Below, piece by piece: positions 1 to 56,669 of a stretch of DNA of 64,000 nt. Under the pieces are notes generated by a model that searched no databases, was not told the origin of the DNA, and saw only the letters and a program-made list of their open reading frames with translations. A program made the translations under genes and the position numbers. This DNA comes from Typha latifolia (Eukaryota; Streptophyta; Magnoliopsida; Poales; Typhaceae): assembly GCA_019914945.1 (NCBI GenBank), contig CM034103.1:8246001-8310000 (forward strand). Direction: 5' to 3'. Position 1 is the first letter of the stretch. Each line of letters opens with the position of its first letter.

Positions 1-772
1 TTCACACAGACCGAGAGCCGCATTCACAAATGTGTTCAAACGCGGGTACTGCGTTCACACAGACCGAGAGCTGCGTTCACAAATGCGTTCGAACGCAACC
101 TGAAGAATTCAAGTTGTCGCGTTCGAACGCACTCGGGCCCGTTCGAACGCACCTGAGTTCAAGTCATGCCGTTCGAACGCACCCGGGTCGCGTTCGAACG
201 CACCAACGAAGTTTGATAAAATTGGACTTTCGTGAGTACGGATAAGACTTGGATTTGTGAGTATGGATAAGACTTGGATTTGGCTCTATCTTTGAGATCA
301 TATATAAAGATTGTGATGCCCTATCTTTAGGGAGGTTGAAGAAGCATTATTGAAGGAGACTTCTTGAGGCTACATCGGTTCTTCAACTAACAAGGTTCCA
401 CTCATCTACAAATCTTAATCTTTTGTCTTAAGGGCTATCTAGACGAAAGATCAATCTCGAGGGTTACTGAGATTGGACTTCAATCACGAGAAGCAGTGAA
501 TCGTGGGTTCTAGCGAGCAAGACTGAGATGAACAAAGTTGTTTGGATCGACGGGTTGTTTTGTGAGTCAGTCTTGTAACTGCTACTATTCTAGTGATTGG
601 TTTTGATCCGAGTTTGGATCCGTGGTTTTTTCCCGTTTGGGTTTTTCCACGTTAAAATCTTGGCGTTCATCTCTGCTTTCGTTTTTAATATTTCTTCCGA
701 CTTTTACTTAAGCAAACGAGTGAGATCATTGCCTAGTGTTTAGATACATACGTGTGTCTAGGGGTTTTTTCA
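1..772 (+). mobile_element. 5' LTR (left end cut off by the window) of SIRE-like Copia element C1
   Basis: The right end is fixed by the terminal CA at 771-772 followed two bases later by a tRNA-iMet-type primer-binding site. The left part (1-230) is a minisatellite of roughly 53-bp units built from GCGTTCAC and GCGTTCGAACGC words. Two copies of a GGATAAGACTTGGATTT word follow (about 241-290), then a TATA box at 301-308. The 3' LTR pieces of the same element lie at 12192-12483 and 21539-21717, and a relative is at 35980-36836. The LTR start (TG) is outside the window. Confidence 0.85.
301..308 (+). promoter_or_regulatory. TATA box of C1 LTR
   Basis: TATATAAA lies downstream of the palindrome array and about 470 bases before the LTR end. 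The same position in the C2 LTR has TATATAA (36366-36372). It is the probable core promoter for the C1 transcript; the transcription start is inferred, not seen. Confidence 0.6.
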
Positions 773-774
773 AT

Positions 775-786
775 TGGTATCAGAGC
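775..786 (+). other. Primer-binding site of C1
   Basis: TGGTATCAGAGC matches the 3' end complement of plant initiator methionine tRNA, the usual primer of plant Copia and Gypsy elements. It starts two bases after the LTR end. Confidence 0.9.
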
Positions 787-821
787 AAGTTCTCTCACCC
801 TTTGAGAGAGATCAGATAGGC

Positions 822-4148: not shown

Positions 4149-4149
4149 A

Positions 4150-6080: not shown

Positions 6081-6099
6081 TTATGGCCTGGTGTGAAGC

Positions 6100-7264: not shown

Positions 7265-7266
7265 GT

Positions 7267-7907
7267 TGTTACGAACCGACCTAATTCTATCTGCAACGGT
7301 TCTGGACTCGATGAAGCACATAACTTCAAAGAGGATCTGCGAGTAATCTAACCAACGGATCCTCCTGGATTTTGAATATATTGTTGCCCTTGTAGAGAGC
7401 TTTCCAATGAATCTAAGATCAGAAGATTTGGAGGGTCAGATATCAAGATATCAACCGAATAGTGGTCGAAGGTCAATTAGATCCTAGCTTAATAGCCCTC
7501 CAATGGCTACATGGATGTTAGGTTTAGTTCTTGGTATGAAAGGGGAGAAGTTATTGTGGAAGAGGGTGGTTAGAAGCTGGAAGAGGCCGACCAAAGACTT
7601 GGGCGGTGGAAAAAGGGAGGTAGGAGAGGGCGTCAATGGCTAGAGACAAGTAGAGAAGAAGATAAAGGCCAAAGCCAATTCTGATATCATCATGAGACCT
7701 CAATTAGGGTTTCCTCCATATTTATATAGAGGCTCACCCTATGAACTCCTCACTTAGTTAAACAACTCCAAACAACCTTAACAATTCCTAACAAAACTCA
7801 CACTTTCACCGCGGTGCATTCGAACGCGCTCGACTGTGTTCGAACACAAAATTTTTGTTCTCCGTCGATACAAACATTGTGCAGGCATTCGAACGGCCCA
7901 ATTCCGT
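7267..7907 (-). mobile_element. LTR of GypC (minus strand, outer end truncated)
   Basis: The inner boundary is TGTTACG at 7267, next to the PBS. On the minus strand it contains a TATA box (plus-strand TATTTATATAG, about 7718-7728). Upstream of that (7805-7900) are words related to GCGTTCGAACGC. The outer end is lost: C1 RNase H coding sequence resumes at about 7908 with KRIIKYV. No terminal CA or target duplication can be fixed at that side. Confidence 0.65.
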
Positions 7908-8745: not shown

Positions 8746-9762
8746 TGATACGATTCAGACTTCACCGACGTCGTCTCGAGCATGGATTCACTTTAGGAGT
8801 ATTTTTATTTCATGTTTTAGTGTTTAATTTCCATTAAAATAAGTTTTCTGTACGTCGCGTTCGAACGCTGGTGGAGTGAATTCGAACGCGGTTTGTGAAT
8901 GGGGTTGTGAACGTGGTGAAGAGAATGTACTGTGCGTTCGAACGCGGTGTGTTCGAATGCACTGTGAACGCCTGCATCGCGTTCACAAATATCGACAGGC
9001 GCGTTCGAACGCCTGCATCGCGTTCGCAAATACAGAAGAGCGAACTCGGTGCGTTCGAACGCGGTCGGGCGAGTTCGTACGCGGTCGACGAAAATTGTGT
9101 TTTTAGGGTTAATTTGAGTTGTTGGTTAGCCTATAAAAGGATGTGGTAGGCAACCAAATTGATTATTGATTATTGAGATTGAGTTTTGCCTTGCCTCCTT
9201 CGTCTTCTTCGCTCCCGTTCTCTCAATCCCCGGCGACGCCGCTTCTAACCTCCCTCGTCCGGCTAATCACCCTAGTTCCTTAGGGGTGGCCCTTTTCTCC
9301 CCCTTCGTCCAATCTATCCAACACTTGCCCTAATCCTTCCATCAACCACAACCCTTCCACCATCACTTTTCACCGGTGCCACCACATTAACGCCGGTGCA
9401 CCTTCAACCACCATTACCTAGGATTACGTGCCTCCATCCACGGATCCAAAACATACCATCTGACCTTTGTCCACAAATCGGACGATATCTCGAGATTCCC
9501 ACATCCGATTCGCCTGAAACTAGATTTGTTGGAAAGCTCTTTTCTGGGGCTACAACATATCAAAGTTTCACGTCGATCTGACGGTGGCATATTTCAGGAT
9601 CTTATTTCAAAGTTCCGTGCCAGATCTAGTCCAGATCAAGAATTGGAAGAGATTCACCAAAAAGGCGGGATCGTATCAAGCTGGTATCAGAGCTCTATAG
9701 CCAGAGGCGTGATCGTATCAAGCTAGTATAAGAGCTCCATAGCCAGAGGCATGATCGTAACA
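8746..9762 (+). mobile_element. Solo Gypsy LTR A1 with 5-bp target duplication, ending in two PBS-bearing 42-bp units
   Basis: It begins TGATACGATT and ends CGTAACA. It is flanked by TAACG at 8741-8745 and 9763-9767. The homologous place in C2 (39054-39058) has a single TAACG and no insert, which confirms both ends. It contains a palindrome array (about 8855-9085) and TATAAAA at 9132-9138. At 9669-9678 the sequence reaches GATCGTATCA, the expected LTR end, but continues for exactly two 42-bp units (9679-9720, 9721-9762), each holding a primer-binding-site-like word, before the target duplication. Confidence 0.9.
9679..9762 (+). repeat. Two 42-bp units carrying reiterated primer-binding sites at the end of LTR A1
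   Basis: Unit 1 has TGGTATCAGAGC at 9682-9693 and ends TGATCGTATCA. Unit 2 has the decayed TAGTATAAGAGC at 9724-9735 and ends TGATCGTAACA. Both lie inside the target duplication, so they were part of the integrated DNA or arose within it. The same 42-bp unit occurs at 52696-52737 and in reverse at 47167-47250. Confidence 0.85.
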
Positions 9763-9767: not shown

Positions 9768-10824
9768 TGTGTATATTCTTGAGTGAGCATGACATCATGA
9801 AATTTTTTTTTAAATAGCTCACTATTGACTTTGATTTTCACAGTTTGACCTCATGTGTGAAAGCCATCATTGCACCTATATGGTTTAAGTATATTAAAAG
9901 AAATTACAGGAAAAATTCCTATTCTGTTATGGAGAATAAGTCGAAAACTGCAAATTTAAATACTAAGTTGGTTTGACTACTGTGTTATATCATTGCTTAA
10001 ATAGGAAAGTTTATTTAAGAAGAATGTTTCATGTTATCTATGTTCAATTTACATATGTAAATTGTTATGATCAATCAAGATTAATTTAATTTTAAATGAT
10101 TCATTAGAATTGATTATAATATGCTTTTGATGATTTGATTGATCTGTGTATGACTTATTTCATTTGATTGTCATATTCTATTCTTGAATCTATTTTGAAT
10201 TTCTAGAAGTGCATCTCTAAAAAGATTTTTTATTTTTTATTTCTTAGATTTTTTTACTTAAAAAAAAGGGGCCGTTTGAACGCAGATTTTTGAGTTCGAA
10301 TGCGATGACTGACGCGTTCGAACATGCAGACCGGTGCGTTTGAACGCACTCGAGGGTTCTTTAAATATTACGTTTGAACCTAAGGGTTTTCATCTTCCAT
10401 CTTCCGAACCCTAGAAACCCTTCATTTTCTCCCTTTCAAATCTTCATGATCTTGGTCTTTTTCATCAAATTTCTCACTACAAACCCTTTTAGAGGGTAGT
10501 TTTCCTCCGGATCTAGCGTCTTTTAGCCGAATCTTTTAGTTTTTCTTCACTTTTGCGAGGTATGATCATTCATCAATTTTCTTATTTTTTTATTCAATTG
10601 AGTCTCTTGATCTTGATTGATTTCGTGCGTTTTCGAGTTTTGATCACGTTAAAGTTAATATCTTAATGTTTCTTGTGCGATTGAACGTGATATCTTAGCG
10701 TTTTCAAGTTGAAGATGGATTTCATTTAGGGCCTTCATGGTTTCTTGAATTTTTTGGATTTCTTGTTATCTTTTTGTTTGCTTTCGGCATGTATTGAATC
10801 TTGCAACTTGTTTTTTTCTCAAGA
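9768..10824 (+). other. C1 long spacer between pol and ORF3
   Basis: Non-coding and AT-rich, homologous to about 39059-40020 in C2. A small group of decayed GCGTTCGAACGC words (10270-10350) lies in it. The stretch near 10380-10560 (TCATCTTCCATCTTCC onward, to TTGCGAGGTATGATC) resembles a leader or splice-acceptor region for ORF3, but no splice site was established. Confidence 0.5.
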
Positions 10825-11829
10825 ATGCCTAGAAAAGCTACAGTTTCCAAGAAACCAAGGCCTCCTTCGTCACTTACTTCGGCTCCCAAGTTTTTTACAT
10901 CTACGGCTGCAGGGCGATATAAACATAATTTTGGCACTCGACCTGTTATCTGTGAACGGCTAGTGGTCATTTCTAATTTTTCAGCCTTGGGGATGAGCAG
11001 GATTGCATATGTGGAAGTTGTTAGGGAATTTTTCAGTAATGCCACGGTTTTAGGACATTGTATACGTTCTACTGTCCGTGGGGTTTCGATATACTTGGAC
11101 TCCAATGTTATTCGTGCTGAACTCCAACTTCCTGATGGCGAGTTTCAGTATCCATCGTCTGCTCCACTTTCTGATGTCAAAGAATATGCTGGTATTGTGC
11201 TAATCAAAGGGGAACGTTGGAAGGAAAACATGATGCCTCATGCGAAACTGACATCAGTGGCTCGCATGCTTCACCTGCTTTGTCTGTACAATGACACCCC
11301 CAAGACTCTACATTCCAGTATTAGTTCGGATCGTGCCTTCCTCCTTCATGCGATGTTGTCGTGAGTTTCGTTGATTTAGGCTGCGGTGATCTACGATTCC
11401 ATTCTAATAGCTGCAGAGAAAGAAACGCCTCGTGAAGGGATGCCAATTGGCATATTTATTACCAACATGTGCACTTAGAGTGGGGTGCAAGTGGATGCCT
11501 CGGAAGCTTCGCTTACTTCGCAAAAACTGTTGGATCGGATAACTCTTAAGCGGAGTTAAGCTCATGATCAGTCGTCTCCTCTCAAGCCGTCCTCTTCCGC
11601 CGCTGGACGTTTATCACACCTCGACATTTCTGATGACAGTTCTGACGATGACTCATCTCACACCGAGGGAGAGTTACCACAGTTCTCTGACCGTTTCGAT
11701 CAGCTTAGCACTCAAGTGCAGGACCTCCATTCGGTCGTGAATGATTTATGAGCTGAGCAAGCTCGTCAGGGGACTGTACTCGACTCCGTGTTGTCGATTC
11801 TTCATCGTCAGTTCCCTCCAAGTTCCTAG
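10825..11829 (+). pseudogene. ORF3 of C1 in the env-like position; resembles the plant transposon-protein domain family
   Basis: The start is ATG at 10825 (MPRKATVSKKPRPP). The open part runs to 11364 and includes SNATVLGHCIRSTVRGVSIY and WKENMMPHAKLTSVARMLHL. Beyond the stop the same frame continues with AAVIYDSILIAAEKE, an acidic Ser/Asp run (SDDSSDDDSS, near 11620-11660) and a heptad-like segment with AEQARQGTVLDSVLSILHRQ, ending at a stop at 11827-11829. Several stops interrupt it. SIRE/Maximus elements often carry an extra ORF here, loosely called env-like. No signal peptide or membrane segment is visible, so an envelope function is not supported. The assignment to the plant transposon-protein family is from memory of similar annotations. 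Confidence 0.6.
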
Positions 11830-12180
11830 TCTTTGGCATTTGTGTCAAAAATGGGGAGAGTGTGTAGTGTGTGGTGAGTTTAGACGCGCGTTTAAAGTTG
11901 AGTTTACTGGTGTAGGGGGAGTGTTGGCATAGGGGGAGTTTACTAGAGTTTACTGGTTTATGTTTACTGCATAATAACTTTGCTTGAGTACTTGTGAACT
12001 TATGCTTGCTTGATAATGTGTGTTTGGATTGTTATTCATTTCTAGTTATTTTCACTTGATCTTGGATTGGTATATGTTTATTTGCAGGGATTGATGTGCT
12101 AAAAGTACTAGACTTGTTGAATGCTCATTTTGAATTCTTTGTAATATCTTGTAAACTAGATGTTTTGTCACAAATTGTCA
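11830..12180 (+). other. C1 3' untranslated region
   Basis: Non-coding. It contains several GGGGGAG-type purine runs (about 11845, 11915, 11930) before the polypurine tract. No gene is seen. Confidence 0.5.
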
Positions 12181-12190
12181 AAGGGGGAGA
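12179..12190 (+). other. Polypurine tract of C1
   Basis: AAAGGGGGAGA immediately precedes TTGTTAGG, where the 3' LTR starts (TG at 12192). This is the plus-strand primer position expected for an LTR element. Confidence 0.75.
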
Positions 12191-12191
12191 T

Positions 12192-12483
12192 TGTTAGGTT
12201 TTTAATTGTTGGCAATTGTGTATAAAATATTCTAAGTGTATTTTTACATGTATATAAGCTTTATATAAGTCTAGAATATCTCTAGTTTGAAGAATTGCAA
12301 GATTATTAGAGAAAAGCTGTTGAGTTCACAGCGCGTTCACAAATGCGTTCGAATGCGGTGCGTTCACAAACGCATTCGAACGTGGGTACCTGTGTTCACA
12401 CAGACCGAGAGCTACGTTCACAAATGCGTTCGAACGCGGGTACTTGCGTTCACACAGACCGAGAGTTGCGTTCACACAGACCG
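12192..12483 (+). mobile_element. 3' LTR of C1, left piece
   Basis: It starts TGTTAGG after the polypurine tract. It enters the same GCGTTCACAAA/GCGTTCGAACGC minisatellite as window positions 1-100 and stops at CACACAGACCGAG, where GypB sequence takes over. The join shares CGAG with both partners. The missing middle of the LTR (equivalent to about 70-590 of the 5' LTR) is not in the window. Confidence 0.8.
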
Positions 12484-14113
12484 AGGCGTGATCGATATCG
12501 TAGTAGCGTGAACGAGTGGTGGTTTGGTATTTGCAGTGGGGTGAGTAGTCTTATCCCCTAGACGCCTTTCTCAAATTAGGTTATAGTATATATGATGTAC
12601 ATGCATGTTTTGGCCTCCAGCATGATTATATGATTTTATCTAGAGATGATTACAGTCGAGCATATTTTATCATGCATTCAATTATGCTGATTTGGGATAT
12701 GAGTACATTGGTGATATATATAGAGATGATTAGAGATGATTCTACTGTTATGATTGTTTACTGAATTGATCTGTAGCATAAGTATGCATGTGTTGACGAT
12801 ACAGTTGGAGACTACATTGCATCATTTTCTCTTGATTCCTATTCCACCTAAATTTTTGTTAGGCATTGACTTGTTATCGTACTTGATATATGCATTTGCT
12901 ATGTCATTTAGAAGGAAAGCATGAAATGTGATTGATAGGATAGTTGATAGAAAGCGTGAGGATACCCGAGTGGGCGCGAGGGTTAGGACGCGCTTGGTGG
13001 ATGATTGATCGCTCGACATAGTCGCGATCCTGTTGGCCTTACGTCTGAGGTCGTTAGTCTGTGTGCGCAGCAGACATTCGGACACATGCCGTTCGCCAAG
13101 GCATATGTGGCGAGTTATCCTCACGAGATTTCTATCAACTATGTGTGTGCCCGGTCTGGATGGATGTTGATACCCTAGCAGGTGGCGGGGTATGATTATA
13201 TTTGAGATACTCCTTGCGGATGACAGAGTATGCTCTGAGCCTTCGGGCATGATGTTGAGACCGGGTACCGGGTGTTGACTGTGCACAGTGGTCTAGTATG
13301 ACGATATTATACCGAGATGTCGGTAATGATCGTGATGTTAAGAAATGCATATGACTTCATTATTATCTGACATACTTGATTATTGAGTGGTCAATATACA
13401 TCATATATAATTGTATCTGATATCATAGCATTGTCAGGGTCGGCATGCATCATGTGTCATATTTGAGAGAGAGTTATGATGATCATATGACGTGGTGATC
13501 TGTTTATTCATTGTCGAGGATTATGTATTTTTATCATTTATGACATGACATGTTATCTATATTTCATTTATGTAGTATTGAGGACACATTCATTTACTCA
13601 TTCATGACATGATACTCTTTCGATTCATATTATTCAAGTACTTCTTGATTTACTCTTGTTTTCTACTTTCCAAAAATCCAGGTGATCGAGAAGAGCAGGA
13701 TACTCCCTTAGAGGTCTTGTTGGTGCGTGAGGAGTAAGGTGTGTTTAGTGTTGTATGCCAGTTGAGTTATCTTATCTGATGTAATAGTTGACATCCTCCG
13801 AAGTGTATCTGTATCATTGTCTTATACTTTAGAATGTGACTTTGTACTTGTATAATTATGTATATACCTCTGTTATGTATATGTAGTTGTAAAAAGCTCT
13901 TGATGATGTGTTGTGGCCTGTGTGGGGCCCAAGTAAGGTTATCTGTATGCTGTTGACAGTTAGACTTGAGTTATTCTTAGTTTAGATATTGTGGAGAAAA
14001 TTATGATGTTGCTACGTGTTTATTTGATTGTCAGTAGCAAACCGATTGGTCAGGTGCTATGCATGTGCCGTGTGGGCTCGTGCTATGCACGTGTTTAGAG
14101 TGTGGGTGTCACA
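12480..14113 (+). repeat. 5' LTR of GypB (5'-truncated)
   Basis: Matches 20171-21538 almost base for base from the GATCGATATCGTAGTAGCG word onward. It ends in TGTCACA, nine bases before the PBS. It lacks the GC-rich and CT-rich first 1.2 kb that is present in the 3' LTR. Confidence 0.85.
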
Positions 14114-21538: not shown

Positions 21539-21717
21539 AGTGATTGGTTTTGATCCGAGTTTGGATCCGTGGTTTTTTTCCATTTGGGTTTTTCATGTTA
21601 AAATCTTGGTGTTCATCTCTGCTTTTATTCTTAATATTTCTACGGACTTTTACTTAAGCGAACAAGTGATATCATTGCGTAGTATTTAGATACATACTTG
21701 TGTCTAGGGATTTTTCA
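21539..21717 (+). mobile_element. 3' LTR of C1, right piece and right end of C1
   Basis: Homologous to about 593-772 of the 5' LTR (TGATTGGTTTTGATCCGAGT onward) and ends at the same TTTTTTCA, here GATTTTTCA. The base after 21717 is C1's right flank; the first five flank bases are GAATG. The matching left copy lies outside the window, so the duplication cannot be checked. Confidence 0.8.
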
Positions 21718-22839: not shown

Positions 22840-24320
22840 CTCTTGCACCCACACTAGAAGCCTTAAACCAGTTCGAATGTGATATGCACGGCTTGATGAA
22901 ATGTCTCAGCAGAGAGCTAGTGGCTATCAAATGTGACAAAGGCGTTAGAACAAGATTTTCTAGAGAGTTCACTATGTCCAACCTGGGAAAGACGTTCGAA
23001 CGGATGGCTAAAGCCTTCAAACATTGGAAACCCATTCATATGAGCTTTTGGAATGTGATGTGGAACTTTAAGCTGTTCAAACGCTCTAGATCTAGTTCAA
23101 ACAGTTTTGTTAAGTTTGCTCTCACTAGTCTAAATTATATTTTTCTAGAGGCTATTTTTATGGGAATATAAAAGGGCAATTTGAAAAGGTGAGGAACACC
23201 TTTATAGGTGTAACTGTTACTAATAGTTTGTTTGCAGAAAAAAATAAAGGTTCTAGTTAGTCAAAGGAGCAAGTCTCGGGATGGAGGGTTCGAATGCCCT
23301 CAAGGCCGTTCGAACGCTCAACGACGAGGTTCCTAGATTAGAAGTTTTATTTTATTATTTTTACTTATCTTGAGCAATAGAACTCGTGCCATAAGTATAT
23401 TGCTAAGTCTAGTCAAGTCGAGGAGCCACTTATAAATATATGTGGTATGCACCTGAATTTTCTTCTTTGATTATTGAAGTTATTGCAAGATCATCTCCTT
23501 CCTCCTTATTCGACTACCTCCAAGCTTTGAAACCCTAGCCTTTATCTAGGATCTTCATTGCTGCCTTCCTCTTTGTCTAGCTGAACCTCCTTGTCTCTAA
23601 AGAACAGCCATACTTCTTCTCTATCCCTTTCCTACAGACTACGTTGACTTCCACCATTGTCATTTCTACCACCTTGCCTGAACTCTAGGCCATTCACCAC
23701 CACGCCTCTTCGGCCTCCCTTTTTCATGATCCATCCCCGATAGATTCGTCCTCCATCTTGAATCTATCTCAATCTCAAAAGTATTCGACCATCTAATTAT
23801 TTGATCTTGAGTTACATATTAACTTTAGAGATCCACGGTAACCCTACGTTTCTGTTTGCAATTTAGACTTGTAGTTTTGTGGGGTTTGGAAGGTGAACGT
23901 TACAATGAACTACACTAAAGAGAAGAGAGATGCTTTTGAAAATGCTAGAAGCTTGAAGAAACTAGAGTCATCTCATGCTCATTTAGTCCAACATTAAAGA
24001 AGATACTTGAGATTGTCTCAAGGGTCACTGAGGCTGATTTACTACCTTAGGCGGTGTATTAAGGGGAGTAAAGCAACACACTATCGTGATGATTACGGGT
24101 AATAGCAATTGATTTATAAGTGTTCTTGTAACCACTAAATCTATTGTATTTAGTTTTACCTCATAGAAGAGGTATATTTTTTCACTCTAGTTGAAAAAGG
24201 TTTTTCAACGTTAAATTTGTCTTGTTTATACTTATTTTATTCTAATATTTTAATATATAAATTGGTCCCAATAGTATTGTTCTTCATCTAGTAAGTGTTT
24301 AATTTTTTCAATATAAGCAA
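22840..24320 (+). mobile_element. E-family LTR, copy a, interrupted by an LTR-like insert
   Basis: Homologous to 29245-30262 and, in reverse, 42290-43336. It carries decayed TTCGAACG words, the TATAAAAGGGCAA promoter word (about 23168) and the closing GTAAGTGTTTAATTTTTTCA. About 695 bases at 23209-23904 are absent from both other copies. The sequence then goes directly into AAGCAATGGAAGTAGA without an intact PBS. Confidence 0.65.
23209..23904 (+). mobile_element. LTR-like insert in E copy a
   Basis: It begins TGTAACTG and ends CGTTACA. Inside are a GTTCGAATG/GTTCGAACGC pair (23288-23320), TATAAATATATG (about 23432) and a CT-rich leader resembling the Gypsy LTRs of this window. It is absent at the equivalent places near 29820 and 42715. 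No clear 5-bp duplication was found, so the ends are approximate. Confidence 0.5.
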
Positions 24321-34527: not shown

Positions 34528-34606
34528 ACGCACCTTATCCTAACGAGTTCAATATCGCCAAAAAAGAAATAATCCTTCTACTCTTAATACAGTTGGAGCA
34601 TCGATC

Positions 34607-35979: not shown

Positions 35980-36836
35980 GTACTGCGTTCACAAACGAGT
36001 TCGAACGCGGGTACTGCGTTCGCACAGACCGAGAGCAGCGTTCACAAACGAGTTCGAACGCGGGTACTGAGTTCACACAGAGTAGTGTTCACAAACGAGT
36101 TCGAACGCTACGGATAAGATTAGGATTTGGCTCTATCTTGAAGATCGTGAGTACGGATAAGATTTGGATTTGGCTCTATCTTGTACTTTCATGAGTGCGG
36201 ATAAGATTTGGATTTTGCTCTATCTTCAAGATCGTGAGTACGGATAAGATTTGGATTTGGCTCTATCTTGTACTTTCGTGAGTACGGATAAGATTAGGAT
36301 TTGGCTCTATCTTGTACTTTCGTGAGTACGGATAAGATTTGGATTTGGCTCTATCTTGGAGATCATATATAAGGATTGTGAAACCCTATCTCTAGGTGGT
36401 TGAAGAAGCATTATTGAAGGAGACTTCTTGAGGCTACATCGGTTCTTCAACTAACAAGGCTCTTCTCATCTAAAAATCTTAATATTTCGTCTTAAGGGCT
36501 ATCTAGACGAAAGATCAATCTCGAGGGTTACTGAGATTGGACTTCAATCACGAGAAGCGATGAATCGTGGGTTCTAGCGAGCAAGACTGAGAGGAACAAA
36601 GTCGTTTGGATCGACGGGTTGTTTTGAGAGTCAGTCTTGTAACTGCTACTATTCTAGTGATTGATTTTGATCCGAGTTTGGATCCGTGGTTTTTTCCCAT
36701 TTGGGTTTTTCCACGTTAAAATCTTGGCGTTCATCTCTACTTTCATTTTTAATGTTTCTTCCGACTTTAACTTAAGCGAACGAGCGAGATCATTGCCTAG
36801 TGTTTAGATACATACTTGTGTCTAGGGGTTTTTTCA
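35980..36836 (+). repeat. 5' LTR of C2 (start missing)
   Basis: Begins inside the GCGTTCGAACGC minisatellite (GTACTGCGTTCACAAACG) and ends CA at 36835-36836. TATATAA is at 36366-36372. Apart from the expanded repeat at 36108-36362 it follows the C1 LTR closely. Confidence 0.85.
36108..36362 (+). repeat. Six tandem 43-45-bp units just upstream of the C2 LTR TATA box
   Basis: The word CGGATAAGATT recurs at about 36111, 36154, 36198, 36241, 36284 and 36329, each followed by GGATTTGGCTCTATCTT. The C1 LTR has only two, at about 240 and 266. The array stops right at the TATA box. Confidence 0.9.
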
Positions 36837-40215: not shown

Positions 40216-40472
40216 AGCAAGACTGAGAGGAACAAAGTCGTTTGGATCGACGAGTTGTTTTGAGAGTCGGTCTTGTAACTGCTACTATTCTAGTGATTGG
40301 TTTTGATCCGAGTTTGGATCCGTGGTTTTTTCCCATTTGGGTTTTTCCACGTTAAAATCTTGGCGTTCATCTCTACTTTCGTTTTTAATGTTTCTTCCGA
40401 CTTTAACTTAAGCGAACGAGCGAGATCATTGCCTAGTGTTTAGATACATACTTGTGTCTAGGGGTTTTTTCA
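40216..40472 (+). repeat. 3' LTR of C2 (right 257 bases)
   Basis: GAGCAAGACTGAGAGGAACA to CTAGGGGTTTTTTCA, matching 36580-36836. Protease coding sequence begins at the next base. Confidence 0.85.
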
Positions 40473-40923
40473 CAATGCATTCAACTTCGTCATACTAAAC
40501 AGAGGTATCGATTCTGAATCAAACTATCCATATCAAGGATATCAAAGCAATTGCAACGTGAGGAACCTATTGCTGAATCACGTAGCGACCATTAGACGCT
40601 ATCAAAAGGTGCCTCGCAATAGTGAACCGGCACTCATGAGAGCTGTTGCCGACAACCCGTGTCGCTTGGAATAGATGCCGGTGGTTATGATTTCCAATTC
40701 TATCATTCTGGTGTCTTCGAGAGGTAATTGTGGGACTAGTCTAAATCATGGAGTTACAGTTGTTGGTTATGGGATAGATAGCAAACGAACAAAGTATTGG
40801 ATAGTGAAGAACTCATGGGGCAAAGGATGGGGCGACAACGGTTATATTTTGATGCAAAAGGACATAGCTGCACCTGAAGGGTTGTGTGGAATTGCAATGC
40901 TGGCCTCATATCCCACGTTGTGA
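40473..40923 (+). pseudogene. 3' part of the cysteine-protease gene, including a second copy of 355 bp
   Basis: 40473-40827 repeats 35625-35979 almost exactly. It then continues with the true C terminus, [20 protein letters not shown] and [12 protein letters not shown], stop at 40921-40923. Compared with the left copy, one base is lost near 40650 and one gained near 40718, so about 70 bases are out of frame. The catalytic His and Asn region is intact. There is no promoter or start for this part; it is the stranded 3' end of the gene split by C2. Confidence 0.85.
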
Positions 40924-43423: not shown

Positions 43424-43975
43424 TGATACGTTTAGTTAGGATCTTTTCTTACTGCATTAGTTATTTATTTCATTAAAATAAAATTTCTGTAAGTCGCGTT
43501 CGAACGCAGGTTGAGTCACGTTCGAACGCAGGTTGAGTCACGTTCGAACGCCCTTGCGAACGCCTATATCAGGTTCGTAAATACAGAGAACGCATATTGT
43601 GCATTCGAACGCAGTCGGGTGAGTTCGAACGCCTACATCGCATTCGCACATACAGAGAACATCTTGTGGTGCGTTCGAACGCGATCGGCGAGAATCCTCT
43701 AGAATTAGGGTTACATATTATTTTAGGACTTATTGGCTAGCCTCTCTATATATGTGGATGGCAGCCAAATTCATTATGCTATTGGATTATTGATTTCTTG
43801 CCTCTCTATCATCTATATACCATAATCTCCCTCCTCTCTCTTCACCAACCTTCCACCTCTACCGTTGGCAAAGTTTCTTCTAACTTCTAATCTCCCTCGA
43901 CTGTCGAGCCACCCCTCTTCTTTGGGATCTCGACCACTTTGTTCTCTTTGAGATCTTTAGTTTGAGAATCTATCA
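43424..43975 (+). mobile_element. 5' LTR of GypF
   Basis: It begins TGATACGTTTAG and ends CTATCA at 43975, 552 bases. A palindrome array (43497-43690) lies upstream of TATATAT (43747-43753). A CT-rich leader follows. It is related in layout and words to LTRs A, G and H. Confidence 0.75.
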
Positions 43976-45130: not shown

Positions 45131-45219
45131 GCAACCGAGAAAGGTGATTTGCACTTAGAACGCCAGTTGGAAAATCTACGGTTTCAAAAACAGCGGCTAC
45201 GAGTACTAGACCACGACCA

Positions 45220-47020
45220 CCTTTGAAACCTTCTTCCAATGTTAGAGGAGGCACAAGACCCCTCGTTCGAACTCTCACACCTATCCAGGTGGAGGAGCGA
45301 ATAGCGAAGAGCTTTTGCTTTCAATGTGATGAGCGTTTCACCCCCGATCATCATTGTTCTAAACCTATCGGGAGTGTGATGCTTATAGATGGTCTTGAGA
45401 AGGATGATGAGGTTGTTGATGATGGAGAGTGTCTAGAGGAGGTCCATAAGGAGGCCGTTGAGGTGGGTGCAGAAGAAGATATCCAAGCTAAACTTTCGAT
45501 GCATGCATATTCGGGTACTTCCACGCCGAGGACGTTACGTGTAGACGGACTCGTTAGAAAGCATTGTGTGCACATCCTCATCAATTCGGAGAGTACACAC
45601 AACTTTCTAGATGAGAGGTTAGTGAGGAGATTGGGTTTGGTTGCCAAACCGACCATGGGATTTGACGTTGCTACTGGAGAGGGCACGAAGCTTAAGGCGG
45701 AGAGCTTGTGTTGCCGGGTCGGTATACGGGTGCAAGGACACGACATCATTGTAGACTTGTATCCGTTAGCACTGTGAGGAGCGGACATTGTCCTTGGTAC
45801 TCAGTGGTTACAGAGTTTGGGACCCATCACATTTGATTTTTGGAGCATGTGGATAAAATTTAAATAAGGAAACAAAGATGTGCGGCTTGATAGCGTTCGG
45901 TCTTTGCCGATTCCTGTGATGCAGCCTATAATGGGGCTGCCTTGTGCATATGATTTGGCCTATCTTTTTTAGTTAGGACCAGCAGGAGATAAGCCTCAAA
46001 CGAGTTCAGGTACTACCATTGAATTGTCTAATTTAGTAGATAACTTTTCTGGACTGTTTGAGGAGCCACAGGAGTTGCCACCAAGGAGAGCGGTGGACCA
46101 TCACATAGAGAATGTACCTGAGGCTACACTAGCAAACATGAGGCCAGATTAGTATCCACATGTGCAAAAAGAAGTTTTCTCAAAGGTGGTAGCCAAGATG
46201 TTGGAGCAAGGTCTCATTCAACTAAGTCATAGCTCATACTCAACCCCATGCTATTGGTGCGAAAAAAGACGGGACATAACATTTTTGTGTCGACTATCAA
46301 GCATTAAATGCTATTACCATCAAGGATCGGTGTCCTATTCCGATTATCGAGGAGTTGCTGGACGAGCTTGCACGGGTAGTCAATATTCAGCAAGCTTGAC
46401 TTCAGGGCTGAGTATCATCAAATTAGAGTTCACCCGACGAATATGCACAAAACTACGTTTCAAACTCCAAACGGGTATTACGAGTTCCGGGTGATGCCTT
46501 TTGGTCTCACCAATGCTCTAGCTACCTTTCAAGGCCTTCTGAATGATATATTTCTGCCTCTCTTGAGAAGGTATATCTTGGTATTTTTTGACGACGTTTT
46601 TGTGTAGAACAAGACTGAATTGGAGCATTGGAGGTATTTGGAGGATGTGCTGAAATTGTTGAAGCAAAACCAATTGATGATTAAGAAGTCCAAGTGCATA
46701 TGAGGAGTGCCACAACTGGGGTATTTAGGCCACATCATTTTAGCGGATGGTGTAGTGGCGATTAAAAGGTTGCATGCATGACTGCTTGGCCTATTCCTAC
46801 TACTACCACCGGATTGAGAGGATTTTTGGGGCTGACAGGATATTATCGTCGATTCATTGCTAGATATGGCAAGATCGCTGCTCCTCTCACTTCGGCACAG
46901 CGGAGATGGATCACAAAATTGTTGGGGTATGATTATGTAATACAATACAAGAAGTGAACGGAAAATAGAGCAGCGGATGCAGTATTGTGCAAAACCGATA
47001 TCGCCGAGCTTGCACTATCG
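45220..47020 (+). pseudogene. Protease, RT and RNase H end of GypF, heavily decayed
   Basis: A zinc-box-like CFQCDERFTPDHHC lies near 45322. Protease has NSESTHNFLDERLVRRLGL near 45585, so both the Asp and the Gly of D-S/T-G are lost. RT is recognisable in several frames: KVVAKMLEQGLIQLSHSSYS (46180), the MPFGLTNA region (about 46494-46520) and the FFDD site (about 46586). RNase H is mostly deleted: a GFLGLTGYYRRFIARYG-like word (46810-46870) is followed within 60 bases by a HYKK...AADA word. The minus-strand A element begins near 47021. Confidence 0.7.
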
Positions 47021-48168
47021 GGCGGTTCCACGGGTGGAAGTCCTTGCAATCGTTTCTCCCTCCTCTATTGGGAGAATCTCTTCTTCATCATCTCGCCGTG
47101 CAGCCATGGATCTGGTTGTCGTCATTGGAAGCGCTTATCCGAGGAAAGGTGGCTCTGATACCAGCTTGATACGATCTTCTCTTTGGGGCTAAGGCTCTGA
47201 TACCAAATTGATACAATCTCACCTCTGACTATGGAGCTCTGATACCAGCTTGATACGATCTCTCCTTTAGGGCTAAAGATTGATCTTTTCTAATTCTCAG
47301 ATCTGGACTAGATCTGGTACGAAACTTTGAAATAAGATCCCAAAATATTCCACCGTTGGATCGATGTGAAATTTTGATATGTTGTCGCTCTAGAAAAGTT
47401 CTTTCCAAAAAATCAAGTTTCAGGCGAATCGGAGTTGGGGATCTCGAGATATGGTTCGTTTAGTGGACGAACATCAGGATGCTCTATTTTGGATCCGTGG
47501 ATGGAGGCATGAGATCCTAGGTAATGGTGGATGGTGGAGGACTGGCGTTAATGGGGTGGCACTAGTGAAAAGTGATGGTGGAAGGGTTTTGGTTGATGGA
47601 AGGATTAGGGCAAGTGTGGGATAGATTGGACGAAGGGGGAGAAGAGGGCCACCCCTAAGGAACTAGGGTGATTAGCCGGACGAGGGAGGTTAGAAGCGGC
47701 GTCGCCGGGGATTGAGAGAACGGGAGCGAAGAAGACGAAGGAGGCAAGGCAAAACTCAATCTCAATAATCAATAATAATTTTGGTTGCCCTACACATCCT
47801 TTTATAGGCTAACCAACAACTCACATTAACCCTAAAACACAATTTTCGCCGACCGCGTTCGAACGCACCGAATTAGCTCTTCTAGATTTGCGAACGCGAT
47901 GCAGGCGTTCGAACGCGTGATTGAACGCGCCTGTCGGTATTTGCGAACGCGATGCAGGCGTTCACAGTGCGTTCGAACGCACAGTACATTCTCTTCTCCA
48001 CGTTCACAACCCCGTTCACAAACCGCGTTCAAACTCACTCCACCCGCATTCGAACGCGACTTACAAAAAACTTATTTTAATGGAAATTAAACATTAAAAC
48101 ATGAAATAAAAATACTCCTAAAGTGAATCCATGTTCGAGACGACATCGGTGAAGTCCGAATCGTATCA
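47021..48168 (-). mobile_element. A-minus: 5' end of an A-family Gypsy (LTR, three PBS copies, gag start), inserted in GypF
   Basis: On the minus strand the LTR runs from TGATACGATTCGG (48168) to GATCGTATCA (47251), 918 bases. It has TATAAAA (47806-47800) and a palindrome array upstream of it (47855-48060). Three PBS copies follow at exact 42-bp spacing (plus-strand 47236-47247, 47194-47205, 47152-47163). The gag start is ATG at 47125 (MTTTRSMAARRDDEE) and the body stops after about 35 codons. GypF integrase resumes on the other side at 48169. The 3' part of the inserted element is missing. Confidence 0.8.
47152..47250 (-). repeat. Three primer-binding sites at exact 42-bp spacing
   Basis: GCTCTGATACCA (the reverse of TGGTATCAGAGC) at 47152, 47194 and 47236. 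All three 12-mers are intact, while the bases between have diverged. The unit length equals that in A1 and A2. Confidence 0.9.
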
Positions 48169-48695: not shown

Positions 48696-49546
48696 TGATA
48701 CACTTAGTTAAGATCTTTTCTTATTGTATCAGTTGTTTATTTTTATTAACATAAAATTCCTGTAGGTTGCATTTGAACGTAGGAGGGGTCGCGTTCAAAC
48801 GCCCTTGCGAATGCCTGCATCAGGTTCGTAAATACAGAGAATGCGAAAAGTGTGTTCAAACGCAGTCGGGCTAGTTCGAATGCTTGCATCACATTCGCAC
48901 ATACGAAGAACGTATTTTGTGCACTCGAACGCGATTAGGCGGGTTCGAACGTGATCGGCAGGAATCCTTTAGAATTATGGTTACTTATTATTTTAGGACT
49001 TGTGGGCTAGCCTCTATAAATATGTGGATGGCAGCCAACTTCATTATGCTATTGGATTATTGATTTCTTGCCTCCTATCTTCTCTCTAGACTCTCCCTCC
49101 TCCCTCTTCACCATCTTTCCAGCTCTTCCATTGGCAAAGTTTCTCCTAACTTCTAATCTCTCTTGTCTGTCGAGTCACCCCTCTTCTTTGGGATCTCGAC
49201 CACTTCGTTCCCTTCGTCTATATCCCTTAATTACATCCACCATCCACCATCCACCTTCATCTCCATACTCATCCATAACCCTAATATCCACTCCACCCGT
49301 CACCACCACCATCACCCACGTTATTCCATGCTTTCATCCCTGTTGTAGGTCGTATCATTGAAGGGCATAAATACGAAAGTTGTAGATCAGGAAATTAAGA
49401 ATCTAATACAATTAGTTTTATAATTTGCTAACTACAGAAGAATATCTAATGAATATTTTTCCACAGTTGCGCGGACTGCTTCCCGCAATAAATTCAGATC
49501 TTAAGAAATTATTCTGTAGTCGACCTTTTGGTACAAGAACCCATCA
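48696..49546 (+). mobile_element. Solo Gypsy LTR G with 5-bp target duplication
   Basis: It begins TGATACACTTAG and ends CCCATCA, 851 bases. CGTTC flanks it at 48691-48695 and 49547-49551. It carries a decayed palindrome array (48770-48960), TATAAATA (49015-49022) and a CT-rich leader. No PBS copy lies within it, in contrast to A1 and H. It sits between the PBS and the gag ATG of GypJ. Confidence 0.9.
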
Positions 49547-51815: not shown

Positions 51816-52737
51816 TGATACGATTCGGACTTCACCGACGTCGTCTCGAGCATTGATTCACTTTAGGAGTATTTTTATTTCATGTTTTAGTGTTTAATTT
51901 CCATTAAAATAAGTTTTCTGTAAGTCGCGTTCGAATGCGGGTGGAGTGAGTTCGAACGGGGTTGTGAACGTGGTGAAGAGAATGTACTGTGCGTTCGAAC
52001 GCGGTGCGTTCGAACGCACTGTAAACGCCTGCATCGCGTTCGCAAATCCAGAAGAGCGAACTCGGTGCGTTCGAACGCGGTCAGGCGAGTTCGAACGTGG
52101 TCGACGAAAATTGTGTTTTTAGGGTTAATTTGAGTTGTTGGTCAGCCTATAAAAGGATGTGGTAGGCAACCAAATTGATTATTGATTATTGAGATTGAGT
52201 TTTGCCTTGCCTCCTTCATCTTCTTCGCTCCCGTTTCTCTCAATCCCCGGCGACGCCGCTTCTAACCTCCCTCGTCCGGCTAATCACCCTAGTCCCTTAG
52301 GGGTGGCCCTCTTCTCCCCCTTCGTCCAATCTATCCAACACTTGCCTTAATCCTTCCATTAACAACAACCCTTCCACCATCACTTTTCACCGGTGCCACC
52401 ACATTAACGCCGGTCCACCTTCAACCACCATTACCTAGGATCACATGCCTCCATCCACGGTTCCAAAACAAGACTATCGATGTTCGTCCACTAAACGAAC
52501 GATATCTCGAGATCCCCAACTCCGATTCGCCTGAAAATTAATTTGTTGGAAAGCTCTTTTTCGGGCCTATCAAAATTTCACGTCGATCCGATGGCGGAAT
52601 ATTTCAGAATCTTATTTCAAAGTTCCGTACCAGATCTAGTCCAGATCAAGAATTGGAAGAGATCGACCCTTCACCAAAAAGGCGAGATCGTATCAAGCTG
52701 GTATCAGAGCTCCATAGCCAGAGGCGTGATCGTATCA
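51816..52737 (+). mobile_element. LTR A2 inserted in GypJ RT, ending in one PBS-bearing 42-bp unit
   Basis: It begins TGATACGATTCGG. The standard LTR end GATCGTATCA is at 52686-52695, followed by one 42-bp unit (52696-52737) with TGGTATCAGAGC at 52699-52710 and a second GATCGTATCA. RT coding resumes at once. TATAAAA at 52148-52154 lies downstream of a palindrome array (51925-52110). Flanking bases CCGGT and CCACC do not form a convincing target duplication. Confidence 0.8.
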
Positions 52738-53087: not shown

Positions 53088-54074
53088 TGATACGAATCGG
53101 ATCAAATTGGATCACACCAAAAAGATATTAGGCTCAATGGATTGAGTCTAATTATCTTATTTGGTTATTTGATTTAGTTAGAGTCTTAGTAGGTTAGGAT
53201 TTTATTTAATTAGGTAAATCTATCTCTGCGCAATTTTAGAAAAATATTCGTATAATATTCTGCATATATCCAAATAATATCAAACCAGTTGGATAAGGTC
53301 GCTAACCTCCCAATCTACAACTTTGATATTCATAACCTCTAGATTCGGAATCTATCTGTGACAAAAGGAAAGCTTAATCCGAGAGGTAATCGGAGAAGAT
53401 AAGGAATATTGGTTTAGTTGGTTTGTTAGAGTTTCATATTGTTTTAGGACTTATTGGCTAGCCTCTATAAATATGTGGATGACAGCCAACTTTATTATGC
53501 TATTGGATTATTGATTTCTTGCCTCCTATCTTCTCTCTAGACTCGTCTCTCCTCCCTCTTCACCATCCTTCCACATTTACTGTTACCATCCTTCCACATC
53601 TACCGTTGACAAGGTTTCTCCTCGCTTCTAAGCTCCCTCGACTATCGAGTCACCCCTCTTCTTTGGGATCTCGACCACTTCATTCGCTTCGTCTACTTTG
53701 TTTAATCACTTCCACAATCCACCCTCATCTCTATACCCATCCATAACCCTAATATCCACTCCACCGTTACCACCACCATTACCCACGTTATTCCATGTTT
53801 TCGTCCCTGCTACAGTTCGAATTTGCGAAGGGCATACATATAAAAGTTGTAGATTTGGAAATTATGGATCCAACCCAGTTGATTTAGTAATTTTATGACT
53901 ACCGGAGAATATTTGACGAATAGTTTCCCACATTTGTGCGGACTACTTCCTGCAATCAATTCAGATATTAATGAATTATTCCATAGCCGATCTTTTGGTT
54001 CCAGATCCTATCAATTTAGTATCAGAGCCTATCAATTGGTATCAGAGCCTATCATTTGGTATCAGAGCCTAATA
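53088..54074 (+). mobile_element. Solo Gypsy LTR H with 5-bp target duplication, ending in three PBS copies
   Basis: It begins TGATACGAATCGG. ACTAG flanks it at 53083-53087 and 54075-54079. The expected LTR end CCTATCA is at 54007-54013, but three further units follow: 54014-54034, 54035-54054 and 54055-54074, each with a GTATCAGAGCC word. The last ends CCTAATA, a decayed CCTATCA. The TATAAATATG promoter word is near 53466. It has no clear palindrome array. Confidence 0.85.
54014..54074 (+). repeat. Three tandem 20-21-bp units with primer-binding sites
   Basis: TAGTATCAGAGC, TGGTATCAGAGC and TGGTATCAGAGC, each followed by CTATCA or its decayed form. All lie inside the ACTAG target duplication. 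Confidence 0.85.
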
Positions 54075-54714
54075 ACTAGTTTGTTAATTCCTCAGAAGCT
54101 AAACCTCAAAGTGAGGAATTGAAAGATGAAAAGATGGTAATATTAGAGAAAATATGGATGGGGAGAAAGATTGCAATTGAGAAAGAAACTTGGAACAAAA
54201 TGGTAGAGAGAGGGAAAGCTATTGAAAATGAATCGAAAGAGCTAGAAGTTCAACAAATGGATGAAGAAGAAGAAAATCAGGAAAATTAGCAGATGACAGT
54301 ATATTCAATACTAGATGTGGAACCATTTTAATCATATGGAACTCCAGTGACTAAAAAATATGCTAGGAAGAAGGCCAATAAATCACCTAAGGTGCCAACG
54401 AGAAGAAGCATAAGAAACATTGTTAAGCAGAGAGGACAGGAGAAACAATTCGACAGCAAATAGAAATGGGCAAGGCTGAAGCTTTGGAAATTACTGGAAA
54501 AAAGAGATCCCATCTAGGTAAAGACCACTTTTAACTCTGTTTGTGTTTCTCTAAATTTTCAGATGATGAATTATATTCAATAGCTCATACATGTGGCATT
54601 AGTTTAGGTAATACCCAAGAGGAATATAAAGATTTTAAGAGCCCTCAAGAGGGAGAGAGCAGAAAAATACATAAACTCTCTAAGTAAATTCAGAGAAGAG
54701 GAGATTCAAACTGA
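54075..54714 (+). pseudogene. L1-type LINE ORF1 C-terminal part
   Basis: A frame with ETWNKMVERGKAIENESKEL, then YGTPVTKKYARKKANKSPKV and PTRRSIRNIVKQRGQ, a basic tail as in plant L1 ORF1 proteins. Three or four stops interrupt it. It lies directly upstream of ORF2 in the same orientation. Confidence 0.5.
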
Positions 54715-55940
54715 ATGAAGGGTCTTTTCTAGAATATCAGAGGTATGGGATTACATGAGAAAAGAAAAAGAATCAAAGAGTTGATTACCCAAGAAGAGCT
54801 GGATTTTATTTGTATAGAGGAAACAAAATTTGAGATTTGCAATGATAGAATGCTTCTGACTATGGGTGGCAATAGGATCAGATGTTGGTCTTATCTGCCT
54901 TTAGTTGGGGCCTCTAATGGAATTCTAATTGGTGTGAATGATGACAATCTTGCTGCGGTAGATTGGAAAAGTGGTACTCACGCAATTTCTGTTAAAGTTT
55001 GTAATAGAGATGATCAGACAAATTGGATTCTTACTAATGTTTATGGTCCTTAAGACTGGAAAGAGAGAGATCATGTGGCAAGAGCTGAAGGATATAAAGA
55101 TGTGGGGAGAAAATAAGTGGTTGTTGGGAGGAGATTTCAATGCTACTAGATATGAGAGGGACAAGAAAGGAAAAAAGTGCAGTAATAAAGAAAGTATAAT
55201 CTTTAATAATGTGATAAATGACTTAGAGGTTCTAGAAATGAAACTCGCAGGGTGAAGATTCTCTTGGTCTAACCTGAGGGATGATCCAGTCTTTGCTCTG
55301 TTGGATAGAGTGTTTGCCTCTACTGATCGGTAGGCAGTCTATCCTTTGACTGTGATCAAAGCCTTACCAAGGATCTTCTCAGATCATGTTCCTCTGCTAA
55401 TAGATACTGTGGTTAAGAAGCCTAGGGCTCATGTGTTCATATTAGAACAGTTTTAGTTTTGCAAAGAAGATTTTGACAAGCTGGTTAGAAAGTAGTGGTC
55501 TCATGAGACAGAAGGGTCTTATGCTATTGAAATTTGGAATAAAAATAATAAGAAATTGAGACAAAGTATGAGAGGTTGGAGTCAGAATATTAAAAGAGAA
55601 GATCAGGCTTAGAAAAAAATGATACAGATTGTTAATCAGCTGGATCTAGTGGAAGAGAACAGAAATTTATATCCTGATAAGATAATAATAAGAGAAAATA
55701 CTAAGATGCAACTTTATCAGCTTTATAGAGAAGAGGAACTGAGATGGCAACAGAGGTTGAGACAATTATGGTTGACTGCGGGTGATTTGAATACTGCTTA
55801 TTTTCATAAGGTGGCTAATGGTAGAAAAAGAAGAAATTCTATCTTCTCCCTTCAGATTGAAGGGCAACACACTTGGAATCAGCAGAAAATTAGAGAGAAC
55901 ATTACCGAATACTATGAAAATCTATTTGGAACAGTGAATA
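54715..55940 (+). pseudogene. L1-type LINE ORF2, endonuclease and linker; RT missing
   Basis: The start is ATG at 54715 (MKGLF, stop, NIRGMGLHEKRKRI). The AP-type endonuclease shows the N-terminal WNIRG-like block, FICIEETKFE, TNVYGP, LLGGDFNATRY (about 55120-55160), RRFSWSNLRDDPVFALLDRV (frame change, about 55255) and SDHVPLL (about 55380), in the order expected for plant L1. Then comes the linker with WLTAGDLNTAYFHKVANGRK (about 55770) and ITEYYENLFG (about 55900). The RT that should come next is absent, because Copia LTR sequence begins at about 55950-55990. Stops at 55051 and later. Confidence 0.85.
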
Positions 55941-55949
55941 CTATTAAAA

Positions 55950-56669
55950 ATTGGCTCAAATTCAGTTTCAGCAAAATATCAGCATTTTTGTGCCACGCGT
56001 TCGAACGGGCCCTAGGGGCGTTCGAACGCGGGCTCCAGACAAAGACCAGTCTGTGATGCAGGCGTTCGAATGGCCCCAGCCGCGTTCGAACGCGAGCCAA
56101 CCCGAGAGCAGCAGTTTCTGTCGGCGTTCGAACGGGGCTTTGGCCGTTCAAACGCCAGTCTGCATTTGCACTAGGCGCGTTCGAACGCGCCCCAAGGGCA
56201 TTCGAACGCGACGCGGAAAAAACCCAATTCTGAACCGGGCCTATAAATAGAAATGTTGGGTTTTAAGGTTGAGTGTCGGCATTTTGCAAGAGAGAAAAGC
56301 TTATAGGGGAGAGCCACCATTGTTTAGAGAGATATTAGAGTTGTAATCTCTTTGTATTTGAAGATTTGCATAGTGGATTGAAGATTGCTTCGCCCGTGGA
56401 CGTAGGCACATCGCCGAACCACGTAAATCGTGTCTCTCCCTCTTTTCTCTTTATGGTTTGCATTGATTTGCTGTTCATGTTTGTGATTACCTTGGGTATT
56501 TGAAGTTCTCTACAACTAGCATCTTGCATTTGGAGTTCTCACATAGATATTGATATTAGCTTTGCTAATATTTGGTTTGCCCCAAATTATTGCTATTCCA
56601 CTTGGATTTGTTTGAGGGTGAAGGGTATTGCTTCCGCTTCCTTCACCCATTTGAGTATTTTGCACAACA
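55950..56669 (+). mobile_element. 5' LTR of a Tork-like Copia (T1), start unresolved
   Basis: It ends ACAACA at 56669, three bases before the PBS. GCGTTCGAACGC words and variants (55998-56215, at least eight) are followed by TATAAATA at 56242-56249. The left border against the LINE could not be fixed; it lies between about 55940 and 55990. Confidence 0.7.

Follow-up and report, generated by a model that had tools for sequence, protein, structure and literature searches.

Paired palindromes upstream of the TATA box in Copia and Gypsy retrotransposons of Typha latifolia: a candidate promoter module

Why should retrotransposons of unrelated lineages carry one and the same short palindrome in front of their promoters? 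The question is raised by a stretch of 64,000 nucleotides from Typha latifolia (assembly GCA_019914945.1, contig CM034103.1, positions 8,246,001 to 8,310,000 of the forward strand; hereafter the window). In this window a first-pass annotation had listed eleven clusters of the 12-bp palindrome GCGTTCGAACGC, which has a TTCGAA centre, mostly in long terminal repeats (LTRs) of several families. It had proposed a common regulatory module, a host-factor site acquired more than once, or transfer of U3 segments between families. Our analysis leads us to favour, with moderate confidence, the reading that the arrays, carried by several LTR lineages, would be enhancers of the RM-box type for one host factor, with a probable transfer between SIRE-like Copia and Gypsy elements.

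Window copies of GCGTTCGAACGC were counted as exact matches and at up to two mismatches. There are 19 exact copies and, these included, 61 copies at up to two mismatches, compared with a mean of 0.74 and a maximum of 3 in 100 dinucleotide-preserving shuffles. All eleven listed clusters are present, four of them without an exact copy (7816-7896, 23286-23317, 35997-36108 and 48791-48952), and one array, at 10272-10347, had been missed. The whole 214-Mb genome holds 14,944 exact copies where Markov models of order 1-3 predict about one (0.7-1.1), and the reversed control word is found 0 times. As a background, 140 kb were examined in 14 stretches of 10 kb, each set at a round coordinate; 4 of them contain matches at up to two mismatches. 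L007 and L011 each hold a single two-mismatch match, which is chance level; L012 and L017 hold palindrome clusters with Gypsy-group flanks, L017 together with one solitary match. Outside LTR-type clusters these 140 kb show no excess of the palindrome, and the motif is not equally common outside LTRs in such arbitrary stretches. Of the 23 loci taken around the first exact genome matches on C1 of the assembly, 22 have a flank like that of another cluster. The 23rd, L021, is a solitary palindrome that stood outside the flank test, and one of the first 24 C1 loci (8647258) was left out. A tandem satellite was ruled out, as the arrays sit in LTR U3 regions and their units differ by family. Literature searches for GTTCGAAC and CGTTCGAACG returned no LTR-retrotransposon title among the matches listed.

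Where do the arrays lie within the LTRs? In the SIRE-like Copia element C1 the U3 array spans 32..201 on the plus strand (6 copies at up to two mismatches, 3 exact), followed by a TATA box at about 301 and the primer-binding site (PBS) at 775. The array of C2, also SIRE-like, lies at 35997..36108 (plus strand; 3 copies, none exact, in a 53-bp unit), and a 44-bp-unit repeat (36109-36358) separates it from the TATA box at 36366 (PBS 36840). A further SIRE-like LTR, starting at about 12191 after GGGGGAGA at 12183, bears a plus-strand array at 12345..12485 that is truncated by a nested GypB LTR (from 12482). Among Gypsy elements, plus-strand arrays were found in A1 (8857..9082; 7 copies, 4 exact; TATA 9132, PBS 9682), A2 (51927..52098; 6 copies, 3 exact; TATA 52148, PBS 52699), F (43496..43682; 6 copies, 2 exact; TATA 43747, PBS-like word with one mismatch at 43979) and G (48791..48952; 4 decayed copies; TATA 49015). 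Two more are on the minus strand: A-minus (47855..48057; 5 copies, 3 exact; TATA at about 47806 and PBS at 47236, minus strand) and GypC (7816..7896; 3 decayed copies; TATA at about 7728, minus strand; PBS-like word with one mismatch at 7253), whose flank matches locus L001. The Copia element T1 carries 8 copies, 3 of them exact, at 55997..56209 on the plus strand, arranged as four pairs, each with a gap of 8-9 bp (TATA 56242, PBS 56673).

The distance from the last palindrome to the TATA box is about 100 bp in C1, 87 in GypC, 48-49 in A, 64 in F, 62 in G and 32 in T1. The annotated placement of most clusters 30-130 bases upstream of TATA is therefore borne out by offsets of 32-100 bp, with C2 (257 bp) as the exception. 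Clusters were also oriented solely by the presence of a PBS word, allowing one mismatch, at a distance of 100-800 bp. This was possible for 14; the cluster at 47855, with PBS-like words on both sides, was left out. Up to 130 bp from the cluster, TATA[AT]A occurs towards the PBS in 11 of the 14 and on the opposite side in 1, against 36% for random stretches. The three that miss are L020, which reads AAATATG there, and window 35997 and L026, where TATA is 257 and 311 bp away. GypB LTR copies (12482-13788 and 20176-21541) contain no copy of GCGTTCGAACGC at up to two mismatches, as had been annotated. The PBS word recurs at 42-bp spacing behind A-type LTRs (window 47152-47236 and 9682-9724), and at L004:1375-2117 a SIRE array with a 55-bp unit reaches 16 palindromes (up to two mismatches), showing array growth. 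An isolated palindrome pair (23286..23317, plus strand, gap 8) has no LTR assigned to it.

How many lineages carry the palindrome was assessed by grouping the flanks with the arrays masked, leaving out single-copy clusters and L002, which is the same place as L001. On the TATA side the groups comprise Gypsy A/F/G (14 clusters), SIRE-like C (9), L020/L029/L037 (3), T1 (3) and GypC with L001 (2); the two clusters L022 and L031 matched each other distally in the flank grouping, and inspection by eye showed the same for their TATA sides. L020/L029/L037 and L038 joined the Gypsy distal group with their distal flanks. Comparison of palindrome-masked arrays united the A, F, GypC and L022/L031 groups (scores 37-52 versus null maxima of 23-30), without a direct link between A and GypC (11 of 60 shuffles reach the score), and linked L020/L029/L037 weakly to the Gypsy groups. 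We therefore counted all of these as one Gypsy set. SIRE and Gypsy arrays are weakly linked (scores 30, 30 and 34 versus null maxima of 27, 28 and 32), and the scores of the T1 array against A, F and SIRE were reached by 2, 2 and 4 of 60 shuffles. In Pfam, the F open reading frame (ORF) at 45148-45777 matched RVP_2 above the cut-off and the GypC ORF matched Ty3_capsid below it; C2 and T1 both have a copia-type gag, T1 also Pol_BBD, and BLASTP found the T1 gag not similar to that of C2. These results point to three carrier lineages, namely Gypsy, SIRE-like Copia and a second Copia lineage (T1), with flanks lacking detectable mutual similarity. A single family comprising all carriers is ruled out, since the flanks form separate groups. 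The first-pass annotation had counted too many families: A, F, G and GypC collapse into one Gypsy set, and three unrelated lineages are left. The Sirevirus label of the C elements comes from gag, layout and arrays rather than from reverse-transcriptase phylogeny. By eye, the end of the coding region that precedes a Gypsy A-type LTR at L044:201-350 (minus-strand display) resembles the tail of a chromodomain; if it is one, the Gypsy group would be chromoviruses. The polyprotein of GypB is 86% identical over 98% to a Typha angustifolia protein; the main text of the T. angustifolia paper has no occurrence of "palindrom" or "SIRE" (PMC12058305).

In all three lineages palindrome pairs are often 19-22 bp apart, that is two helical turns, a spacing that is new here. 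Among adjacent palindromes up to 120 bp apart there are 165 spacings, 47 of which measure 20 or 21 bp. Restricted to spacings up to 80 bp, the range of 19-22 bp takes in 26 of 67 Gypsy spacings (at 17 of 20 loci), 15 of 70 SIRE spacings (7 of 10 loci) and 9 of 16 T1 spacings (3 of 3 loci), where an even distribution over 12-80 bp would give 3.9, 4.1 and 0.9. Genome-wide, 276 of the 1,528 exact pairs at gaps of 0-30 bp have a gap of 8-9 bp, compared with 99 if gaps were even.

The way in which copies decay bears on a different explanation. Among 261 copies at up to three mismatches, 182 of 372 substitutions are CpG transitions, in agreement with the decay by C-to-T or G-to-A change that had been annotated, and the best-kept bases are T4, A8 and A9 (95-98%). 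The observed/expected ratio of CpG is 1.78 in 11 window arrays of all lineages and 1.65-1.77 in SIRE LTR arrays, versus 0.73 in the window. Maize Sirevirus palindromes have reportedly been proposed as a source of hairpins and small interfering RNA (siRNA) and as a target of host silencing, and Bousios et al. 2016 are said to have presented the LTR palindromes as small-RNA hotspots. The arrays here could likewise be silencing targets, with read-through RNA folding, being diced and guiding methylation. Besides the CpG transitions, this explanation could draw on RNA folding, which was tested on six array pieces: four form unusually stable folds (z -5.4 to -6.7), and two score -1.9 and -0.8. It could also draw on PMC5311732, where the part of maize Copia LTRs that holds the palindromes is called a hotspot of small-RNA mapping. 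The explanation leaves unexplained the fixed 12-bp word, the 20-21 bp pairing and the place upstream of TATA in unrelated lineages, and the high CpG ratio of the arrays speaks against it, though a motif made of CpG itself raises that ratio. We consider siRNA production unlikely as the explanation of the arrays; because folding is strong in 4 of the 6 pieces, a small-RNA role may coexist with another function.

SIRE and Gypsy arrays appear to have more in common than the palindrome, namely a pair spacer and a 21-bp half-site element, both new here. Their pair spacers are alike, with a mean best match of 6.2 of 8 positions versus a null of 3.8 that 0 of 3,000 shuffles raised to this level (gap-8 examples from SIRE and Gypsy are actcgggc and agtcgggc); the comparison leaves out the gap-8 spacers at 10272 and 23286, and the L022 spacer was entered in the wrong orientation. 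In both SIRE (GCGTTCACACAGACCGAGAGC) and Gypsy (GCGTTCGCACATACAGAGAAC), ACMGAGARC follows a half-site. The joint pattern, GCGTTCRCACANACMGAGARC, occurs 2,389 times in the genome and its reversed control 0 times. Six loci were taken for this element. Mixed half-site forms occur in both lineages (L041 Gypsy, L042 SIRE), and L045 has the Gypsy form yet matched none of the reference LTRs. At up to one mismatch, counts of ACMGAGARC on the promoter and the other strand were 16 and 2 in 18 Gypsy arrays, 13 and 0 in 8 SIRE arrays, and 4 and 0 in 3 T1 arrays, while shuffles gave at most 4, 4 and 2. With palindromes and half-sites masked, Gypsy and SIRE share nine 10-mers (null 0.9, maximum 6), some of them decayed half-sites, and SIRE and T1 share seven (null 0.2, maximum 3). 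What T1 and SIRE have in common is the pair spacing, the palindrome itself and some short words, CAGACAGAGAGCA among them; T1 keeps the pair distance alone, not the spacer letters.

Furthermore, a single locus has a SIRE array fused to a Gypsy promoter, which is likewise new here. In L040 the start of a SIRE LTR and an array of 53-bp units run up to GCGTTCGAACGCGGGTTA, followed by a Gypsy F/G promoter and the downstream LTR part, and the joint lies, by eye, at a GGGT microhomology beside a palindrome. As we read it, L040 shows that such U3 recombination happens, not that a chimera spread. Because so much is common to SIRE and Gypsy beyond the palindrome, module transfer between the two seems more likely than convergence; T1 may have received its palindrome by transfer or acquired it independently. 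The promoter-placed module in unrelated lineages that had been proposed is thus retained, with transfer supported by half-site element, spacer and joint for SIRE and Gypsy and not for T1.

The same observations could be told as neutral spread, in which one U3 repeat was copied among nested LTRs by recombination and expanded as a functionless minisatellite. The joint at GGGT, the tandem array units of 53-55 bp and the spacer and half-site element common to SIRE and Gypsy would all fit. Neutral copying would not predict better-kept T4, A8 and A9, a side preference relative to the PBS, the T1 pair distance with different spacer letters, or a second array before an internal SIRE promoter, and we regard it as quite unlikely.

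This second array, with its TATA box ahead of an internal gene of the SIRE-like element, has been newly found here. It is best seen in L039, where the order is an array ending GCGTTCGAACGC-N10-GCGTTCGAACGC, TATATA, a PF20167 gene, a tract of GGGGGAGA and a SIRE-type LTR that bears a further array; with another word, this matches the arrangement of Sirevirus RM boxes in LTR and linker (PMC2829016). The internal array (L039:503-558) contains two exact copies with TATATA 14 bp downstream, and the gene matches Pfam with E 1e-29. Window positions 9850-12357 are the decayed equivalent of this arrangement: four decayed copies at 10272..10347 (plus strand; gaps 8, 10 and 10 bp) precede an internal gene fragment (Transposase_32, PF20167; 10798..11364, plus strand; Pfam E 1.3e-14). 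The Pfam search on the gene returned PF20167, "putative plant transposon protein", and two matches below the cut-off. It lies before the 3' LTR, where Sireviruses have their envelope-like gene, and may be the counterpart of that gene. "Family X" (TATAAAGAATCCTCGAG...) was ruled out as a further lineage; it is the SIRE-like internal region, joined to the LTR in L039 and the window.

A gene behind its own array also recalls VANC of the VANDAL elements, and a factor encoded by the element might bind the motif against silencing, other families being free-riders. VANC motif arrays expand by tandem duplication in non-coding parts of transposable elements, and VANC6 motifs also occur in the unrelated AT9TSD1, according to the parts of PMC5735166 that treat the motifs. 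Pfam shows no known DNA-binding family in the PF20167 gene. To our judgement an element-encoded factor is decidedly unlikely.

If the binding factor belongs to the host, which known sites resemble the palindrome? The VOZ site GCGT-N7-ACGC has a free centre and does not fit: in 204 kb the N7 form occurs at 1 place versus 22 for GCGT-N4-ACGC, and the palindrome centre is kept at 0.88-0.95. The TFIIIC B box, known from the tRNA T-loop, reads GTTCRANNC with the C closing the loop. It is unfit, the loop-closing position being G in 234 of 261 copies; no tRNA was found in the window. A heat-shock element has TTC and GAA two bases apart and was rejected, as the two directly adjoin in the palindrome. 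The CHR site of LIN54/TCX proteins is TTYRAA. TTCGAA and its CpG-decay products match it, and the GCG/CGC flanks lie outside what a CHR site explains.

The place and spacing of the palindromes, the conservation of their core and their occurrence in three lineages argue for a protein-binding enhancer module of the RM-box type. We observe the palindrome, its position, its pair spacing, the three lineages and the common extra elements directly. The TTCGAA-centred palindrome would be the putative site of a single sequence-specific DNA-binding factor of the host, probably a dimer. As the pairs, 20-21 bp apart, lie two helical turns from each other, two dimers could sit side by side on one DNA face. 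Arrays bound in this way, mostly 30-130 bp upstream of TATA, would drive or gate element transcription, and the second array would do likewise before the SIRE-like internal gene. The module presumably grows by tandem duplication and was probably passed between SIRE-like Copia and Gypsy by U3-U3 recombination, and T1 may have gained the palindrome separately. A bolder version, which we put forward tentatively and with some doubt, holds that paired GCGTTCGAACGC sites for one host factor at two-turn spacing were adopted in one plant by three or more LTR lineages belonging to two superfamilies, through a portable cassette (palindrome pair plus GCGTTCRCACANACMGAGARC) moving between Copia and Gypsy U3s, so that many LTR elements would share one switch.

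Several observations weigh against the host-factor module or its transfer. That a protein binds, that it activates rather than represses, and how and in which direction the module moved are inferred from patterns in the DNA. T5 and the CpG bases are kept at just 0.78-0.90 (T5 and the central CpG at 88-89%, 261 copies). Other gaps are favoured as well (among 50 pairs listed, 8-10 bp 21 times, 22 bp 13 times and 3 bp 6 times), and helical phasing past the first spacing is weak (jitter p 0.01). The enrichment upstream of TATA expected from the first-pass annotation did not appear in a simple genome-wide count of TATAAA 30-60 bases from the palindrome, with 287 upstream and 278 on the other side, hence no preference. 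By eye, more than half of 100 listed reverse-side matches are one internal SIRE sequence, and further ones belong to Gypsy copies, in which the promoter strand has TTTATA in the TATA region. At window 53431-54068 a promoter copy of the Gypsy F/G type has no palindrome upstream; its similarity to G begins exactly at the promoter, so it is apparently 5'-truncated. L016:5966-6471 resembles the Gypsy-group promoter and downstream part in a 10-kb stretch without a palindrome at up to two mismatches. Counts within a lineage are not independent because the copies there are related, and elements were labelled SIRE or Gypsy by their Pfam domains and layout rather than by a reverse-transcriptase tree. 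As to transfer, the spacer likeness of SIRE and Gypsy is about equally strong with one side reversed, and T1 spacers show no significant likeness to either (p 0.06). ACMGAGARC was derived from part of the same arrays and chosen after viewing them. Shared 7-mers between Gypsy and SIRE show no excess (64 versus a null of 69), the likeness being confined to longer words; Gypsy and T1 share no 10-mer beyond palindrome and half-site and have no 7-mer excess either. Finally, the exact pattern of the L040 joint occurs at a single place genome-wide, and the joint may therefore be a local deletion between neighbouring elements.

Some neighbouring features of the window may be recorded here. Pieces of a papain-family cysteine protease gene flank the C2 element (34544-36000 and 40472-40827); a 356-bp piece at 35624-35979 recurs at 40472-40827 with 98% identity, and the best identity in a papain search was 66% among the matches listed. 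A 209-bp tandem duplication (32803-33224, 98% matches) lies outside LTR arrays. In the promoter copy at 53431-54068 the PBS word stands three times at 20-bp steps (54017, 54037 and 54057).

How do these arrays compare with known systems? Host-factor sites in LTR elements include the U3 boxes of Tnt1 and the Su(Hw) sites of Drosophila gypsy. To our knowledge these sites, and those of ONSEN, were each described from one family. The ONSEN heat-responsive element is a host-factor site in an LTR element, as stated in the relevant part of PMC12786077. All three differ from GCGTTCGAACGC in sequence. Like the VANC motifs, the palindrome is a short motif in tandem arrays in non-coding parts of transposable elements, with a counterpart to VANC6 in that unrelated elements carry it; as far as described in PMC5735166, VANC differs by residing in DNA transposons, by its words YAGTATTAY and AGTTGTCC/AC, and by its element-encoded binder. 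Maize Sirevirus LTRs likewise have a palindrome-rich, variable regulatory region and differ in the word and in confinement to one lineage.

The closest counterpart is the RM box, to which the first-pass annotation had drawn no connection. In the sections of PMC2829016 devoted to them, RM boxes are palindromic, CpG-forming LTR repeats of Sireviruses, clustered just upstream of TATA and highly identical, with extra copies preceding the envelope-like gene; these sections call them Sirevirus-specific and missing from classic elements, name Tnd-1 as the single exception to a CGG-CCG core, and state that no common binding factor could be named in 2010. The C elements match this description in LTR array, TATA, PBS, GGGGGAG tracts near the 3' LTR and, if the PF20167 gene is the envelope-like one, in the placing of the internal array. 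The palindrome is likewise repeated in the LTR upstream of TATA (9 copies in L036, 16 in L004 and 6 in C1, at up to two mismatches), and the clusters resemble CpG islands, judged by the ratio of 1.78 versus 0.73. The differences are that GCGTTCGAACGC equals none of the 13 RM words listed there, that it lacks the CGG-CCG core, and that Gypsy elements and a second Copia lineage bear the same word as SIRE. One box with one spacing rule offers a defined probe for a binding factor. It also makes it possible to ask, in a natural setting, whether promoter parts are exchanged among retrotransposons or whether these elements converge on a single host pathway. Palindromes of the RM type were described as a single-lineage trait (PMC2829016, same sections); here the same box occurs in unrelated lineages of one small genome.

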